Assembly: GCA_025455465.1 (NCBI GenBank)
Contig: JALOMI010000019.1
Coordinates: forward strand, 1-33,010
Direction of reading: 5' to 3'
Length of the DNA stretch: 33,010 bases
Source: Cyclobacteriaceae bacterium
GTDB taxonomy: Bacteria; Bacteroidota; Bacteroidia; Cytophagales; Cyclobacteriaceae
Shown here: positions 20,224-25,461 of the stretch, one piece after another
Layout of the letters: every line of letters begins with the position of its first letter
How positions within the stretch are numbered: position 1 is the first letter of the stretch
The notes under the pieces: generated by a model
Told to the model about the DNA's origin: nothing
What the model saw: only the letters and a program-made list of their open reading frames with translations
Database searches by the model: none
Position numbers and translations under genes: made by a program

Positions 20224-21414
20224 ATGACAAGCGTGGTCGAAGCTGATTACATCATTCAATCCGTAAATATCGCCTTGCCCGTAGTTCAGGTATCCATCGA
20301 AGAAATTAACGGGCATATTTTGGCCGAGCCTGTTTATACCGATCGCGACCTTCCACCTTATCATCGCGTTACGATGGATGGTATAGCCGTGCAAAGTGCT
20401 TCGCTCATGCCCGGGAAAATGTTTTCTGTACAAGGCGTACAGCCAGCAGGTGCTGAACCCATGACTCTTCTCTCCCCTGATCATTGCATTCGGGTGATGA
20501 CGGGAGCCAAACTTCCGGTTGGAACTGACACTGTTATCCCAAAAGAATTATTGTCCGTTGAAGAGAACGGTATTCGTGTTGCGGATGATAAAATTAAACC
20601 TGGAATAAATATTCATTTTCGAGGCAGTGATTGCCGGCAGGGCGATTGCCTGCTACAACCAGGTACCCGGCTTACACCAGCAGAGGTTGGCATACTGGCT
20701 GCTACCGGTAAAGCATTGACTCAGGTTTTTGGATTTCCGAAAACGGCTGTCATTTCAACTGGTGATGAACTGGTAGATCTCCATGATCAACCAAAACCCT
20801 GGCAGGTGAGGCGCTCCAACAGCTACATGCTGCAAACAGCGATGCGTAGCTTAGGATGGCATTCAGACCGTTATCATTTTAATGATGACGAAAATTTGAT
20901 TAAGCATGAACTGAAGCGATTGCTTGGCATTTACAACATCGTCATTTTATCCGGTGGCGTATCCCAGGGTGATTTTGATTTTATTCCGTCTGTTTTGGAT
21001 ACCTGTGGCATCCGAAAAAAAATTCATCACATCGCCCAGCGGCCCGGTAAGCCTTTCTGGTTTGGTGCTGATGAAACAGCAAGTAAAATTGTCTTCGCCT
21101 TACCTGGTAATCCTGTAGCCAGCTTCGTCAGCTTCTTTCGGTATATCAAACCATGGATGCACCGCCAGATGGGTGTTCATGACCATTTTCCAACTGCACA
21201 GTTGGCCGATGATTTCAGTTTCAAACCGGCATTGACGTACTTCCTTCAGGTAAAGCTGAAAATTGAGAATGGGTTGTTGAAAGCGAAACCTGTTCCGGGT
21301 GGCGGGTCGGGTGATTTTCATAACCTGATCCACTCTGATGGATTTCTGGAATTGCCTCCGGACCGAAATGAATTTTACCGGGGCGAATCATTCCCGCTGA
21401 TCAGATTTCGTTAA
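20224..21414 (+). CDS. moeA: Molybdopterin molybdenumtransferase MoeA
   Basis: The 396-residue protein inserts molybdate into adenylated molybdopterin. Landmarks: GHILAEPVYTDRDLPPYHRVTMDG (about 32-55, the PPxxxSxMDG form, with Thr here), VMTGAKLPVGTDTVIP (about 92-107), ISTGDELVD, VILSGGVSQGDFDFIP (about 239-254) and FALPGNPVASFVSFF. Length fits MoeA without a fused Cnx1G part. The TAA stop shares TTAA with the stop of the convergent histidine kinase gene, so the two genes overlap by four bases and no terminator can stand between them. Confidence 0.96.
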   Translation: MTSVVEADYIIQSVNIALPVVQVSIEEINGHILAEPVYTDRDLPPYHRVTMDGIAVQSASLMPGKMFSVQGVQPAGAEPMTLLSPDHCIRVMTGAKLPVGTDTVIPKELLSVEENGIRVADDKIKPGINIHFRGSDCRQGDCLLQPGTRLTPAEVGILAATGKALTQVFGFPKTAVISTGDELVDLHDQPKPWQVRRSNSYMLQTAMRSLGWHSDRYHFNDDENLIKHELKRLLGIYNIVILSGGVSQGDFDFIPSVLDTCGIRKKIHHIAQRPGKPFWFGADETASKIVFALPGNPVASFVSFFRYIKPWMHRQMGVHDHFPTAQLADDFSFKPALTYFLQVKLKIENGLLKAKPVPGGGSGDFHNLIHSDGFLELPPDRNEFYRGESFPLIRFR

Positions 21415-22673
21415 GCCGTAGAAACACTGTCTTTACCAAAATCAAAACGTATGATGGTGCCCTTGTCGGTGCTGTCTATGGTCAGGTCGACATTCAAGAA
21501 GGTGGCTATGCGATGCATTATTTGAAGGCCGAATCCGGATTTATCATTTTTGGCATCGGTTAGAAAGACATGCCCGCGTTTAACCTGATCAATCAATGTC
21601 GTTGGTATTCCATTTCCGGTATCCGTCACTTCAACAACCGCACCATGTTCACGTTGACTAATAGTTAAACTGACAGATCCGGGTGCGGTCGTATAGCGGA
21701 TCGCATTAATGACAGCATTCTGAATCATCATCAACACCATGGAATAATTCGAGTTCGCAATAGGCACCGCTACGTCTGCTTCCACCGAAAAGTTCAGCCC
21801 TTTTTCACGGGCCACCGGTTCCCAGGTCTCGATCACTTCCTGCACTACCTGGCATAAATCAACCATCTCATTTTTCACATATTGGGCATTGCTGATCTTA
21901 GAGATCAGTAACAAGGAATTCACCAGGTGCTTAAAGCGTTGAATGGTCTGTTGCATGTCCATCAAACGTTGGAGCTCCTCCGGACTCAGGTGAGACTCCG
22001 AAAGCATGTTCTCAATTTTTGATTGAATCACCGAAATCGGTGTAAGGCTGTTGATGGCTTCATCTAAAATCTTGAAATCCTTCGTACCGGTTTTTATTGG
22101 CTCATAGGTATACTGGCTGGGCTCGCGTATCTCTGGTATTTTTTTATAAATGATTTTATTGAACGGACGGAGAATAACACCATGAAAGGAAGTATCCATG
22201 ATAATGGTGATACCGATGAAGATAAAGAAAGCCGCGACAATCAGTGAAGATATTACTTTCTCTATTTGCTGAATAGTTGCCAGGCTTCGCCCGATTTCCA
22301 GCAGGTAGGTATTCCCACCTTCCTGAAAAGTGTAGGCAAGAACACGGTAAGAAACAACATCCTCTTCAATAATGCGCTCTTCGTTAAAGATGGTGTCAAG
22401 AGTGGTGTTGTCAACAATCCTCTCCAGTGAAATATATTCTTCTTTCAGCAGGTTATAACTTCCGTACCCGCTCTCTGGATCATCCTGAAAAAAATTCTCA
22501 ATGCCTTCGTCAGCGATAATCTCCAGCACTTGGCTGCGCTTCTCGAGCAAGCGGTCATCCGTATAATCCAAGGCATATTTCTTCAGCAGGTAGGGTCCTA
22601 CAGAAAAGAAAACCAGCAGAATAACCCCTTTCGACAAGAGGTTGAACAGAATCATTTTATAGGAGAGTCGCAC
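21411..22673 (-). CDS. Sensor histidine kinase without visible H-box histidine
   Basis: With a GTG start at 22673, 5 bp after the response-regulator stop, the protein has 420 residues (MRLSYK...); ATG 22655 is an alternative. Membrane helices lie at about 8-28 and 140-160 with a 110-residue acidic sensor domain between. The ATPase domain is intact: N box NAVINAIRY (319-327), G1 DTGNGIP (351-357) and G2 GFGLQI (380-385). The H-box, normally SHExxTP, reads AINSLTPIS: the phospho-acceptor place (207) is Ile. The text jumps from the linker (FKILDEAINS) to LTPISVIQS, as though a piece of about 20-25 residues containing the His was lost in frame. It may not autophosphorylate in the usual way. Confidence 0.85.
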   Translation of the reverse strand: MRLSYKMILFNLLSKGVILLVFFSVGPYLLKKYALDYTDDRLLEKRSQVLEIIADEGIENFFQDDPESGYGSYNLLKEEYISLERIVDNTTLDTIFNEERIIEEDVVSYRVLAYTFQEGGNTYLLEIGRSLATIQQIEKVISSLIVAAFFIFIGITIIMDTSFHGVILRPFNKIIYKKIPEIREPSQYTYEPIKTGTKDFKILDEAINSLTPISVIQSKIENMLSESHLSPEELQRLMDMQQTIQRFKHLVNSLLLISKISNAQYVKNEMVDLCQVVQEVIETWEPVAREKGLNFSVEADVAVPIANSNYSMVLMMIQNAVINAIRYTTAPGSVSLTISQREHGAVVEVTDTGNGIPTTLIDQVKRGHVFLTDAKNDKSGFGLQIMHRIATFLNVDLTIDSTDKGTIIRFDFGKDSVSTA

Positions 22674-22678
22674 GCTTG

Positions 22679-23356
22679 CTATAAGAGTTGGATCCGGTAA
22701 CCTACACCACGTACGGTTTCCAGCCAATCAACCGGAGCAAAGGACCCAAGTTTCTTACGCACATTCTTCACATGCACGTCAATAAAATTCGACTGGTGAT
22801 CATCTTCAAAATATTCGCCCCAGATGTGCTCGGCCAGTTGAAACCGGTTAATGACTTTATTTTTATGAATCAGTAAAAAATACAGCAAGTCAAATTCCTT
22901 TTTGGTTAGTTCAATAACATTGCCGTTATGAGCTACTTCGCGCTTTTGTGTATCCATGGTAAATCCCCCAAACGCAATGGCTGTTTCATTCCAACCACTC
23001 TTTCTGCGAAGAATGGCCTGCATGCGCGCTTTCATTTCGAGCAAAGAAAATGGCTTGGCCAGGTAATCATCCGCACCGCTCAGCAAGCCCTCCACTTTAT
23101 CCTGCACTTCGCCACGGGCAGTGATGATAATATACAAAGCACTTTCCTGGGTTTTCTTTGCTTCTTTCAGCAAGTCCATACCGTTACCATCCGGCAAACC
23201 CAGGTCAATCAGAATAAAATCGAAGCTGCCACCAGCTAATTTTTCTGTTGCTTCCTTGTAGGAATGCGCCAAGGTACAGTGAAAATTTTCTTTTTGCAGG
23301 TAACTCTTGATCTCTTCGGCTAACTCACGTTGATCTTCAATTATCAGCGTTCTCAT
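22679..23356 (-). CDS. OmpR/PhoB-type response regulator
   Basis: The 225-residue protein has a complete receiver domain: acidic pair E7/D8, phospho-acceptor D51 in LIDLGLPDGNG, Thr in IIITARGE and Lys in DDYLAKPFSL. The C-terminal winged helix (about 125-225) includes KKEFDLLYFLLIHKNKV and VDVHVKNVRKKLG, ending TVRGVGYRIQLL. The 4-bp ATGA overlap with the barrel gene and the touching kinase gene show a single transcription unit. It is probably a DNA-binding regulator of this locus or of envelope genes. Confidence 0.94.
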   Translation of the reverse strand: MRTLIIEDQRELAEEIKSYLQKENFHCTLAHSYKEATEKLAGGSFDFILIDLGLPDGNGMDLLKEAKKTQESALYIIITARGEVQDKVEGLLSGADDYLAKPFSLLEMKARMQAILRRKSGWNETAIAFGGFTMDTQKREVAHNGNVIELTKKEFDLLYFLLIHKNKVINRFQLAEHIWGEYFEDDHQSNFIDVHVKNVRKKLGSFAPVDWLETVRGVGYRIQLL

Positions 23357-24471
23357 ATCCGTACTTTTTTCTTTCGCTTAACGGGTATGCTGTAATATAG
23401 ATCAAAAGTTTGTATAAAGACAGGTTTTGACGGATCGCCTGCGATAACATTGAGCGGAGTGGCATAACGCGATGTACATTCCAGCGTGAAGTTACCCCAC
23501 TGAAACGTTAACGGTAACGCAAATTCCCAGCTCAGAAATCCGGGTTTGCTTCCATCTTCAGTTGAACCTGTTGGCTCTGATAAGGGCTCCGGAGTTGTCG
23601 TTCCAGTGCCCGTGTTATTGCCACCTGAATTACTGCTATTACCGTTATTACCGTTGTTTCCATTATTTCCTTGACCATTGCCCTGGCCGGGAGTAGTTGA
23701 ACCGGAATTACCAGGAGTTGAACTTGTTCCTCCCTTAGAAGGATTTTTTGCTGAACGGATTAATGCCCGGGGATTTTTAATACCACGGTTTTGCAATACC
23801 GGGTCTTCAGAATAATAAAAACGATTCGTTCCCCAAGTTATGGTAAACATCGGCTGAAAAGAGACCCCGATCTTATTGAAAAGTTTTTCATTGAATTCAA
23901 AATAGCGCGAGTGCTGAGAGATCAGGAAAAAGTCCTGATCATCAAATGCCATTACCTGAGCTTGCAGGGTGGAGTAAAGAATGGTCCAGTCCAAACCAAA
24001 ACCGCCCTGATAAAATCCCAACTGTTCAATACTTCCTGAACCTTCACCGGACTGAATAAAAAACTGACCCCCGCTTACATTCACGTCAATACGTTTCGAA
24101 AGATCAGCGCGGTAACCAGCTGTTACTGCGGTTTGAAACGGTATAGACTCATCCATGAATTTAAAGGCGGAACCGCTTACCCACAGTCTATTATTAAAGT
24201 AATAAGTTAAATCTCCGGTAACAAAGGGAATGGATTGACCGAAGTTTCTCCCCAGGAAGGCAAACTGGTTCTGGTACTTGCTGCCCACAAAGAGGAAATC
24301 ATAAACCACAGAATCCTTGCGTGGATTTTTGCCATCATTTAATAATGCCGATGATCTGGCGGAAAGTCTGTCTGAATTAATCAGGGCAACAAGCATTACC
24401 AGGATAACCTTCCGGTTAACCTTTAACGAGTTCACTGCCTGTAACCATGTTAATTTCATGATAATGATCAA
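23353..24471 (-). CDS. Outer-membrane barrel-like protein with disordered insert
   Basis: The 372-residue frame begins MIIIMKLTW; Met5 (24459) is an alternative start. A signal-like hydrophobic segment is at about 21-34. The remainder alternates polar and aromatic strands (LTYYFNNRLWVSGSAFKF, VNVSGGQFFIQSG, FALPLTFQWGNFTLECTS) as in outer-membrane barrels, ending in aromatic-rich FDLYYSIPV. Residues about 243-310 form a low-complexity Gly/Asn/Ser/Thr/Pro segment (core GNNGNNGNSSNSGG), probably an exposed loop. It starts 3 bp after the stop of the secreted repeat gene and overlaps the regulator by 4 bp. No known family recognised. Confidence 0.72.
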   Translation of the reverse strand: MIIIMKLTWLQAVNSLKVNRKVILVMLVALINSDRLSARSSALLNDGKNPRKDSVVYDFLFVGSKYQNQFAFLGRNFGQSIPFVTGDLTYYFNNRLWVSGSAFKFMDESIPFQTAVTAGYRADLSKRIDVNVSGGQFFIQSGEGSGSIEQLGFYQGGFGLDWTILYSTLQAQVMAFDDQDFFLISQHSRYFEFNEKLFNKIGVSFQPMFTITWGTNRFYYSEDPVLQNRGIKNPRALIRSAKNPSKGGTSSTPGNSGSTTPGQGNGQGNNGNNGNNGNSSNSGGNNTGTGTTTPEPLSEPTGSTEDGSKPGFLSWEFALPLTFQWGNFTLECTSRYATPLNVIAGDPSKPVFIQTFDLYYSIPVKRKKKVRI

Positions 24472-24474
24472 CTG

Positions 24475-24822
24475 CTATTTGCCGGGTGGTTTACCAGCCA
24501 TATTGGGTTTACCGGGGTTTGCCGGCCTTCCAGCTGTGGCAGGTTTACCGTTATTGATAGGTTTTCCTGCGGTTTCAGGCTTACCATGTCCTTCCGGCTT
24601 ATTTCCGTTTCCCGGCTGTGACGGTCGTATACCTGACGGTCGAGCGGCACTGGAGATTTTTGCCGGCTTTGATTTTACCTCTGCCGAAGGAACATTTTTT
24701 ATTTCCTTTCTGTCATTAATTCCCTGTTCAGGCTTTGTCTTGTCATCACCGCGCTGAGCATATGACCAACCTATCGCCAGAAAACAAGTAAGAGCAGCTA
24801 TGGAGGTAAACCTTTTCATCAC
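24475..24822 (-). CDS. Secreted protein with hexapeptide GKPxx(A/N) repeats
   Basis: The 115-residue product has a signal peptide ending near SYA-QR (23) and a charged mature part with SSAAR at 57-61. From about residue 74 it carries a strict six-residue repeat G-[K/R]-P-x-x-[A/N/P], with glycines at 80, 86, 92, 98, 104 and 110. No cysteine lies in the mature part. The repeat is flexible and basic, like a wall- or polymer-interacting tail. It is the first gene of the run towards the barrel, regulator and kinase. It is a paralogue of the gene at 24956. Function unknown. Confidence 0.78.
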   Translation of the reverse strand: MMKRFTSIAALTCFLAIGWSYAQRGDDKTKPEQGINDRKEIKNVPSAEVKSKPAKISSAARPSGIRPSQPGNGNKPEGHGKPETAGKPINNGKPATAGRPANPGKPNMAGKPPGK

Positions 24823-24871
24823 CTTAACAAATATCTCTTAATTATCGGATTTATTTTAATTCGAAACCCCT

Positions 24872-24912
24872 AAAAAGGGAACGTCTCCCCGCTTGATACG
24901 AAGGAGACGTTC
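24872..24912 (-). terminator. Terminator after the upstream secreted-repeat gene
   Basis: On the minus strand GAACGTCTCC (24912-24903) pairs with GGAGACGTTC (24888-24879), a perfect 10-bp stem with a 14-nt loop, followed by CCTTTTT. It lies between the two paralogues and should partly or fully end messages from the first one. Confidence 0.75.
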
Positions 24913-24917
24913 GAAGT

Positions 24918-24949
24918 AAACTCTAAAGCCAACTAACTCCTTAGAGTTT
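24918..24949. repeat. Second hairpin next to the terminator
   Basis: AAACTCTAA (24918-24926) and TTAGAGTTT (24941-24949) form a perfect 9-bp stem with a 14-nt loop, starting 6 bp after the stop of the gene at 24956. It lacks a T run in the minus direction but has TTTTCTT on the plus strand. It may protect the 3' end of the message or help termination. Confidence 0.5.
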
Positions 24950-24955
24950 GTTTTC

Positions 24956-25342
24956 TTAATTACGGACGTTTAATCCGACTGGTCTAGGTTTCATGGCTGG
25001 TACCACTCGCGGACCCTGAGCTTTCGGAGCTGAGGCTGATTTTCCGGAATTTTCTGGCCTTCCAGCAGTTTCAGGGCGATTTCCGTATTGATTTTCAGGT
25101 TTATCGTTAGAAGTCACTGCAAACTGGCCTTTTGGTAAACCTTGCTTACGGGCTGCACTACTGACTATCTTTCCTTTTTCCGGTCCATTGGGTGTAGATT
25201 TAACCGATTCACTTACAGTTTTACCATGATTCGCAGCGGGTACTTCTTTGATTTTGTCGTTATTGTCAACTGTTTCTCCTGCTGACTGTGCAAAACCTAC
25301 AGAAGCAAATAATGCTACTACTATAGTAATCAGGGTTTTCAT
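24956..25342 (-). CDS. Secreted paralogue with degenerate hexapeptide repeats
   Basis: The 128-residue product has a signal peptide ending near GFA-QS (18) and a mature part sharing the order of elements with its neighbour: an acidic NDK-IKEVPAA segment (28-37; NDRKEIKNVPSA in the other), KI-SSAAR (58-65), and a Pro-rich region with a six-residue period (RPETAG at 89-94, RPENSG at 95-100). The end is longer and rich in Pro/Arg. The two genes therefore arose by duplication and the repeat has decayed in this copy. It is followed by hairpins, so its message may be more abundant than that of the downstream operon. Function unknown. Confidence 0.78.
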   Translation of the reverse strand: MKTLITIVVALFASVGFAQSAGETVDNNDKIKEVPAANHGKTVSESVKSTPNGPEKGKIVSSAARKQGLPKGQFAVTSNDKPENQYGNRPETAGRPENSGKSASAPKAQGPRVVPAMKPRPVGLNVRN

Positions 25343-25461
25343 TTGCTGTTGTCAACAATTAATGATTCAAAGAAAATGAGGCATCATGAAGGGAACATGA
25401 AAAGGACAATGACCTGAAAGAAATTTTCAAATAATTAATCCATCAGTTCAAAAAAGGCCTA

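Follow-up and report, generated by a model that had tools for sequence, protein, structure and literature searches.

The window examined here is a contig of 33,010 nucleotides (33 kb, JALOMI010000019.1) from a fragmented Cyclobacteriaceae assembly (G000; 344 contigs, 87% complete). Its minus strand carries five genes, designated S1, S2, BAR, RR and HK, that constitute a real, conserved and apparently unnamed module. S1 (24956..25342) encodes a low-complexity protein of 128 amino acids, and S2 (24475..24819) a low-complexity basic protein of 114 amino acids; both are putatively exported and, by eye, have N-termini that resemble signal peptides. SSAAR occurs in both, within the motif HGK-x-VS...EKG-x-x-VSSAAR in S1, while S2 also has a GKP-type hexapeptide repeat. 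BAR (23353..24459) encodes a 368-residue protein that was modelled as a 12-stranded outer-membrane barrel. RR (22679..23356) encodes an OmpR/PhoB-type response regulator of 225 residues, in which the Response_reg and Trans_reg_C domains both exceeded the Pfam cut-offs. HK (21411..22673) encodes a 420-residue sensor kinase with a GTG start; its HATPase_c domain was above the Pfam cut-off and had retained the N and G boxes, HisKA was below the cut-off and the H-box residues were gone. The common strand, the two signal peptides, the barrel-like third protein and the intact receiver and winged helix of the fourth had all been noted in a preliminary description made from the DNA alone; the strand and the receiver and winged helix were confirmed, and the inspection by eye and the predicted fold agree with the other two.

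The nearest module-bearing genome (G011), referred to as the sister, had all five genes in identical order (locus L018). The amino acid identity over aligned codons was 44% for S1, 49% for S2, 62% for BAR, 79% for RR and 70% for HK; the counterparts of S1 and S2 were located at L018 7383-7763 and 6922-7239, respectively. Both small genes appear to be coding, the differences between window and sister at the three codon positions being 42/34/74% for S1 and 37/33/66% for S2, highest at the third position in each. No Pfam or NCBIfam match of S1 exceeded its cut-off, and neither S1 nor S2 matched LTXXQ at E ≤ 1, in a search whose HMMER filters drop most weak matches.

The gene ends were only partly as first described. 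The stop of BAR and the start of RR overlap (ATGA) and a 5-bp gap separates RR from HK, but the reported 3-bp gap before BAR holds only if translation begins with the TTG at 24471. The sister shares the alternative ATG at 24459, from which the gap between S2 and BAR is 15 bp. S1 does not nearly touch S2, as had been claimed, since 136 bp containing two strong hairpins intervene. The tight unit is therefore S2-BAR-RR-HK only, and S1 stands apart upstream. The double hairpin (24868..24956, minus strand), the second part of which is followed by a T run, resembles a terminator or attenuator. It was identical to the sister at 64 of 69 positions, well above the flanking coding DNA, and its fold z was -4.5 in the window and -3.9 in the sister. 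The first hairpin was found in only 2 of 17 genomes of the genus and in no other locus then examined, and the double hairpin had no Rfam match above the gathering score. A simple terminator scan marked the hairpin end, but the regional count of such sites was 5 versus 4.9 in shuffles. About 25 bp before S1, a promoter-like element (25368..25402, minus strand) consists of TTTCAT-N5-CTTCAT followed after 10 bases by the -7-like sequence TTTCTTTG; its repeat is conserved with the sister.

The kinase had been described as unusual, with an altered H-box. Its intact ATPase domain was confirmed; what had looked like an altered H-box is the absence of one. Alignment to the sister and 32 relatives placed a 69-bp in-frame deletion at 22040..22055 (minus strand; approximate junction ...DEAINSL / TPISVIQ...), which removed 23 residues ending in ASHELR, while the sister kinase reads ASHELRTPIS. 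The phospho-acceptor histidine was kept in all 32 relatives of the 33-sequence set and is gone from the window kinase. In columns conserved in eight outgroups, six changes were unique to the window and seven to the sister; there is no excess of change in the window kinase, so the loss is either recent or an assembly error. A new kinase type with an altered H-box was accordingly rejected, as the deletion accounts for the H-box: this is a kinase that lost it. Judged from the alignment, the loss is a local deletion or assembly error and no property of the module. Without the H-box normal autophosphorylation is impossible, so the window copy is presumably unresponsive or mis-assembled.

Within the genus the module is rare. 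No S2 match was found in the other 15 of the 17 genus genomes, and among 59 relatives both the BAR match (E ≤ 0.001) and the HK match (E ≤ 1e-30) were confined to the window genome and its sister; this first barrel search used a single-sequence query and was too narrow. At the corresponding site in 12 of the other 15 genus genomes, with gene names assigned by eye, moeA adjoins ffh in four (G003, G005, G006 and G013), an antiporter-like gene is present in seven and another gene in one. The ffh of G013 seemed to contain a stop, which turned out to be a frame shift near the gene end. Antiporter-like membrane proteins, also recognized by eye, adjoin the module itself in the sister (L018 7860-9335) and in three other Cyclobacteriaceae loci (L065, L066 and L111).

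Recurrence of the genes and their putative promoter

The linkage of the genes was examined independently by a scan with the kinase sensor region only, against one genome per species (84,980 species), which gave 153 relatives, the best 80 of which were used. A member of the BAR family and a response regulator were present in 78 of these 80 loci; the exceptions were L140, where the contig starts inside the kinase, and L124. The loci span the Cyclobacteriaceae, the Hymenobacteraceae, Spirosoma and the Bacteroidales, with carriers that include Belliella, Aquiflexum, Cyclobacterium, Cecembia, Algoriphagus, Mongoliibacter, Arthrospiribacter, Pontibacter, Hymenobacter, Rufibacter, Adhaeribacter, Spirosoma and metagenome-assembled genomes of Bacteroidales; Belliella pelovolcani DSM 46698 and Pontibacter ramchanderi LP43 are carriers that can be cultivated. 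Searching from the other side, a two-barrel profile hit 34 of the 390 genomes sampled from the order, which belong to 11 of its 129 genera, and regulator and kinase accompanied the barrel in 32 of 35 barrel-defined loci, L018 included, with L079, L091 and L092 as the exceptions. The genes are thus linked, and the recurrence in distant genomes that the preliminary description had named as support was observed for the barrel, the regulator, the kinase and a small secreted low-complexity protein. The genes outside the module, among those listed, vary by genus.

The arrangement is not invariant. In five Hymenobacter loci the barrel gene follows the kinase (L115, L117, L134 and L143) or lies on the other strand (L168), and in L127 the kinase is approximately 2.4 kb from the regulator. 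In four Bacteroidales loci (L122, L132, L137 and L127) the regulator is preceded by a pair of barrel genes, one of which is split in two frames in L127. Several Bacteroidales also encode, upstream of the S gene, a lipoprotein-like protein of 296-299 residues with no Pfam match (L113 2695-3591, L120 1108-1995).

In 65 of the 68 testable loci, the gene immediately before the barrel encodes a small, exported-looking, basic and aromatic-poor protein, termed S. To pass the filter, a candidate needed a signal-like start and less than 3.5% F/W/Y/C; it did not have to be basic. Applied in the same way upstream of other genes of at least 200 residues, the filter gave a hit in 8 of 431 cases, one of which (in L133) is itself an S gene; upstream of the regulator it gave 2 in 77 and upstream of the kinase none in 89. 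Twelve of the 80 loci were left out of the count: L124 and L140, in which no barrel was found, the five Hymenobacter loci listed above and five at contig edges; the barrel gene was chosen by hand for L122, L127 and L137. The three misses were L112, which has little upstream DNA, L148, which does have such a protein that the signal-peptide pattern missed, and L157, which had no such gene within 220 bp. The 65 S proteins are 80-356 residues long with a pI, past the first 20 residues, of 9.3-12.0; their F/W/Y/C content is at most 3.1% and is zero in 38. Their tails in the kinase-linked loci are mostly rich in Pro, Gly, Arg and Lys. The sequences differ by clade, with SISSAAR and RPNxPxxRP in the Cyclobacteriaceae, HGQxVSxxA...KGxxV repeats in Pontibacter and Rufibacter, and either EEGxGEQVRTQ repeats or GARPxxIxRPSGSRIPKGxGRPGG in the Bacteroidales. 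S is therefore conserved in make-up while its sequence differs from clade to clade.

In 56 of 66 loci, the 2.1 kb preceding the barrel contained a TTCAT-N6-TTCAT repeat, typically the 11-bp direct repeat CTTCAT-N5-CTTCAT; this count omits seven loci without a same-strand barrel upstream of the kinase and seven more with less than 500 bp of upstream sequence. There were 62 matches in 137,418 upstream bases versus 30 in 551,470 other same-strand bases. Of 65 loci, 53 had the repeat at most 400 bp from the start of S, and in the 30 bases scanned after it T[AT]nnTTTG, which we take to be the Bacteroidota -7 consensus, followed at 10 bp in 33 of the 53 and at 11 bp in 6, with no other spacing. Three loci (L113, L120 and L129) had a second promoter repeat farther upstream.

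The composite of repeat and -7 box, with at most one mismatch, occurred 32 times in 20 of 22 module-bearing genomes, while the reversed pattern did not occur. By coordinates, 23 of the 32 sites, among them every one of the 16 exact matches, were at the module. Because module loci had supplied the pattern, the off-module sites alone escape circularity. Six of these lie before genes for DUF4382-type lipoproteins and one before an S paralogue elsewhere; two of the 32 (G218 contigs 26 and 86) were left out of this assignment. Pfam confirmed three of the DUF4382 proteins, and three more were counted with them because they visibly resemble one of the three. The lipoprotein genes behind the element (L193, L177, L199, L200, L201 and L202) occur in two families of bacteria, and their sites lie off the module, in L201 only a few kb from it. 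The window element differs from the family composite at two positions. The sequence TTCATNTTCCCTTCATG is matched exactly once in the window genome and once in the sister genome, and a scan of G000/G011 for the composite with up to three mismatches gave 8/10 hits versus 1/12 for the reversed pattern, not clearly above background. The promoter repeat suggests that the two-component pair controls the gene set, and autoregulation of the module is supported by the sequence.

Hairpins are not confined to the window. The gap between S and BAR was at least 30 nt in 42 of the 65 loci, 24 of which had a fold z below -2 and 14 of which were terminator-like; with a gap of at least 60 nt, a cut picked post hoc, 24 of 26 had a fold z below -2, relative to shuffles that kept base composition alone. 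These values suggest that, where the hairpin exists, the S message may exceed the barrel or kinase message.

The barrel, the kinase and known systems

The model of BAR has 12 strands between residues 53 and 361, with a mean pLDDT of 77.8 and high confidence in the strands, and the barrel fold is also supported by the sequence. A low-confidence Gly/Asn-rich loop (residues 211-306) connects strands 9 and 10 and, by strand alternation, would lie on the outside. The best structural match was KdgM (Z 16.6), followed among others by EspP/NalP-type autotransporters and FapF (Z 15.4; 197 residues aligned, 3.3 Å). The matches are to diverse outer-membrane barrels, so the fold does not name a function. 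Sequence comparison placed BAR in no established family: at E ≤ 0.1, 55 members matched seven Pfam families, each through one member only; the best of these was TrAA12 (E 6.3e-5, one member, cut-off not shown), the best Pfam score of the window protein was 13.6 versus a cut-off of 27, and there were no matches to PDB sequences at E ≤ 1.

A 55-row barrel profile found the family in 40 of 395 genomes (24 of 196 genera) of the class, and its wider distribution was read from 20 fetched loci, 16 of them outside the family of the window organism. Barrel, regulator and kinase occurred together in four of the class-level loci (L248, L249, L250 and L252); these kinases do not have the GSYN motif, and in three of the four a small exported-looking protein with 3-6% F/W/Y/C is encoded directly upstream. 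Small exported proteins upstream of the barrel have His-rich tails, suggestive of metal binding, in L255, L256 and L257, where there is no kinase pair. The window genome also encodes a distant barrel paralogue (L244, G000:C50:1-7000; hhalign probability 97.8%), which was found in three relatives as well (L245-L247). In all four the paralogue is preceded by a small exported protein with the motif LTPxxAExFWP, and in L244 and L245, the two loci for which the preceding genes were read, these include an ECF sigma gene and a possible anti-sigma gene. Taken with the module, this arrangement suggests that at least two kinds of regulator serve the barrel family and that the barrel has a small exported partner in either setting.

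The closest profile to the intact module kinases was the PorY family (NF052314), which matched them over nearly their full length (residues 2-421 of 438 in L093). The window kinase scored 148.8 bits and ten intact relatives 190.5-236.5 bits, all below the cut-off of 350, and the identification of the module with PorY/PorXY was rejected on this basis. Conversely, a regulator matching the module RR profile adjoined the kinase in all 12 loci of PorY-family kinases above the NCBIfam cut-off (L203-L214), and no BAR match was found in their 1.5-kb flanks. In the PorXY/SigP pathway, which controls type IX secretion, the kinase is related to that of the module, but the module regulator is a receiver plus winged helix, as in OmpR/PhoB regulators, and is not of the PorX type. 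The effector domain of PorX is PglZ-type. None of the five module genes was recognized as a type IX secretion gene. Compared with orthodox HisKA kinases, the window kinase has HATPase_c and the N and G boxes but no H-box histidine.

Structural matches of the kinase mainly covered residues 209-438, so they do not settle the fold of the sensor region; the top match, the cytoplasmic part of CpxA (Z 21.0), reflects generic similarity, and the sensor region gave three matches to PDB sequences, the best with E 0.31. The sensor segment is acidic, with a median net charge of -11 (n = 33).

Two other known systems were compared. The Cpx system (CpxA-CpxR-CpxP) resembles the module in having an autoregulated pair and a basic exported accessory protein, features that are predicted for the module, but the module S protein is of low complexity without LTXXQ and the barrel belongs to the operon; the module box is also unlike the CpxR box. 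The predicted 12-strand barrel beside a low-complexity, putatively exported protein recalls the Fap system, but BAR had no PDB sequence match and its fold match to FapF sits among unrelated barrels. FapF comes with a coiled coil and Fap partners. Literature searches in an open-licence collection, judged by the titles and abstract openings of the papers listed, showed no named system of this composition, in agreement with the preliminary description.

Proposed function of the module and alternative explanations

The reading that we favor, to which we give about an even chance, is that of a self-regulating envelope module with Cpx-like logic. The periplasmic sensor region of HK, placed by predicted topology between two membrane helices, would sense the state of the envelope and signal to the OmpR-type regulator, which would bind the CTTCAT direct repeat heading its own operon and drive S, BAR and the two-component pair and, in some genera, the DUF4382 lipoproteins. 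In loci with a hairpin behind the S gene, S would be made in larger amounts than the products of the later genes. S would be exported unfolded and would work with BAR in the periplasm or at the surface, most likely feeding back on the kinase, in the manner of CpxP in the Cpx system, or buffering negatively charged envelope material; CpxP is reported to inhibit CpxA through positive charges (PMC4160245). The LTPxxAExFWP partner that precedes the barrel paralogue in the window genome and three relatives is consistent with such logic. We infer the membrane topology, the export of S, the feedback and the buffering from the sequences, and joint action of the repeat proteins and the barrel at the surface, as originally proposed, is plausible.

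Several observations weigh against this reading: 1) L124 has a kinase without barrel or regulator, 2) ten loci, nine from Hymenobacter and L166, have no promoter repeat, about 14 of the 53 repeats are not followed by a -7-like box within the bases scanned, and two module-bearing genomes (G314 and G373) yielded no composite site when one mismatch was allowed, 3) the composite hits at the module are partly circular because the pattern was derived there, 4) the low aromatic content of S was in part selected by the filter, 5) pairing of charge between S and the sensor is weak evidence, because it is not distinctive, PorY-family controls being acidic too (median net charge -8, n = 12), 6) the paralogue partner matched LTXXQ (CpxP/Spy) below the Pfam cut-off in L244 (E 0.0012) and not at all in L245, and 7) in 12 of the 16 class-level loci the barrel occurs without the regulator-kinase pair, L259 having a weak kinase hit. 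The last of these goes part of the way toward the separate occurrence of homologues that was named beforehand as refuting the module, and because some distant homologues of the barrel lack the regulators, the original interpretation is only partly supported.

The main rival to feedback is export of S through BAR, in which S is the cargo and BAR the pore of a one-barrel route that carries disordered polycations to the surface, for matrix, adhesion or charge shielding, and is switched on by the two-component pair. We consider it unlikely. A small charged exported protein precedes the barrel even in four pair-less loci (L255, L256, L257 and L260), the BAR model aligns, among others, with an amyloid secretion channel, FapF, and the scarcity of F, W, Y and C in S would suit an unfolded cargo. 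However, FapF ranks approximately 1.2 Z units under KdgM, amid autotransporter and uptake barrels, and the fold is silent on cargo. A bolder form, in which the module is an undescribed and widespread Bacteroidota surface system whose barrel exports aromatic-poor disordered polycations while the kinase gauges the cargo left in the periplasm, is rather doubtful; that such cargo would be conserved in its physics (charge, lack of aromatics, disorder) and not in its sequence is a conjecture that we hold just as tentatively.

A third possibility, which we regard as improbable, is that BAR is a nutrient or ion channel, S a periplasmic ligand binder or buffer and the kinase a ligand sensor, as in metal or oligosaccharide uptake operons. 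The top structural matches included uptake channels of the KdgM/VhGalP type, the S tails are His-rich in three kinase-less barrel loci (L255-L257), and the antiporter-like genes identified by eye lie beside the module in the four loci named above. However, no other transporter or enzyme gene recurs upstream across families among the genes listed, in a search that was not systematic, and the S tails of the kinase-linked loci are mostly of the Pro/Gly/Arg/Lys-rich kind described above. That the locus is an ordinary two-component pair whose unrelated neighbors are adjacent through shared descent is most improbable: OmpR-type pairs near envelope genes are common and the regulator adjoins every one of the 12 PorY-family kinases examined, but gene order is kept across families while the outer neighbors change, and a common promoter repeat and S-type proteins of unlike sequence are found at the same position.

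If the self-regulating envelope module is the correct reading, it would represent an envelope control module whose barrel belongs to no Pfam family. About one tenth of the sampled genomes, in the order and the class alike, encode a barrel homologue, whether or not the other module genes accompany it. Its exported partner would be easily overlooked by sequence search because make-up, not sequence, is kept. The module provides a concrete DNA site and may tie the uncharacterised DUF4382 lipoproteins to a regulator.

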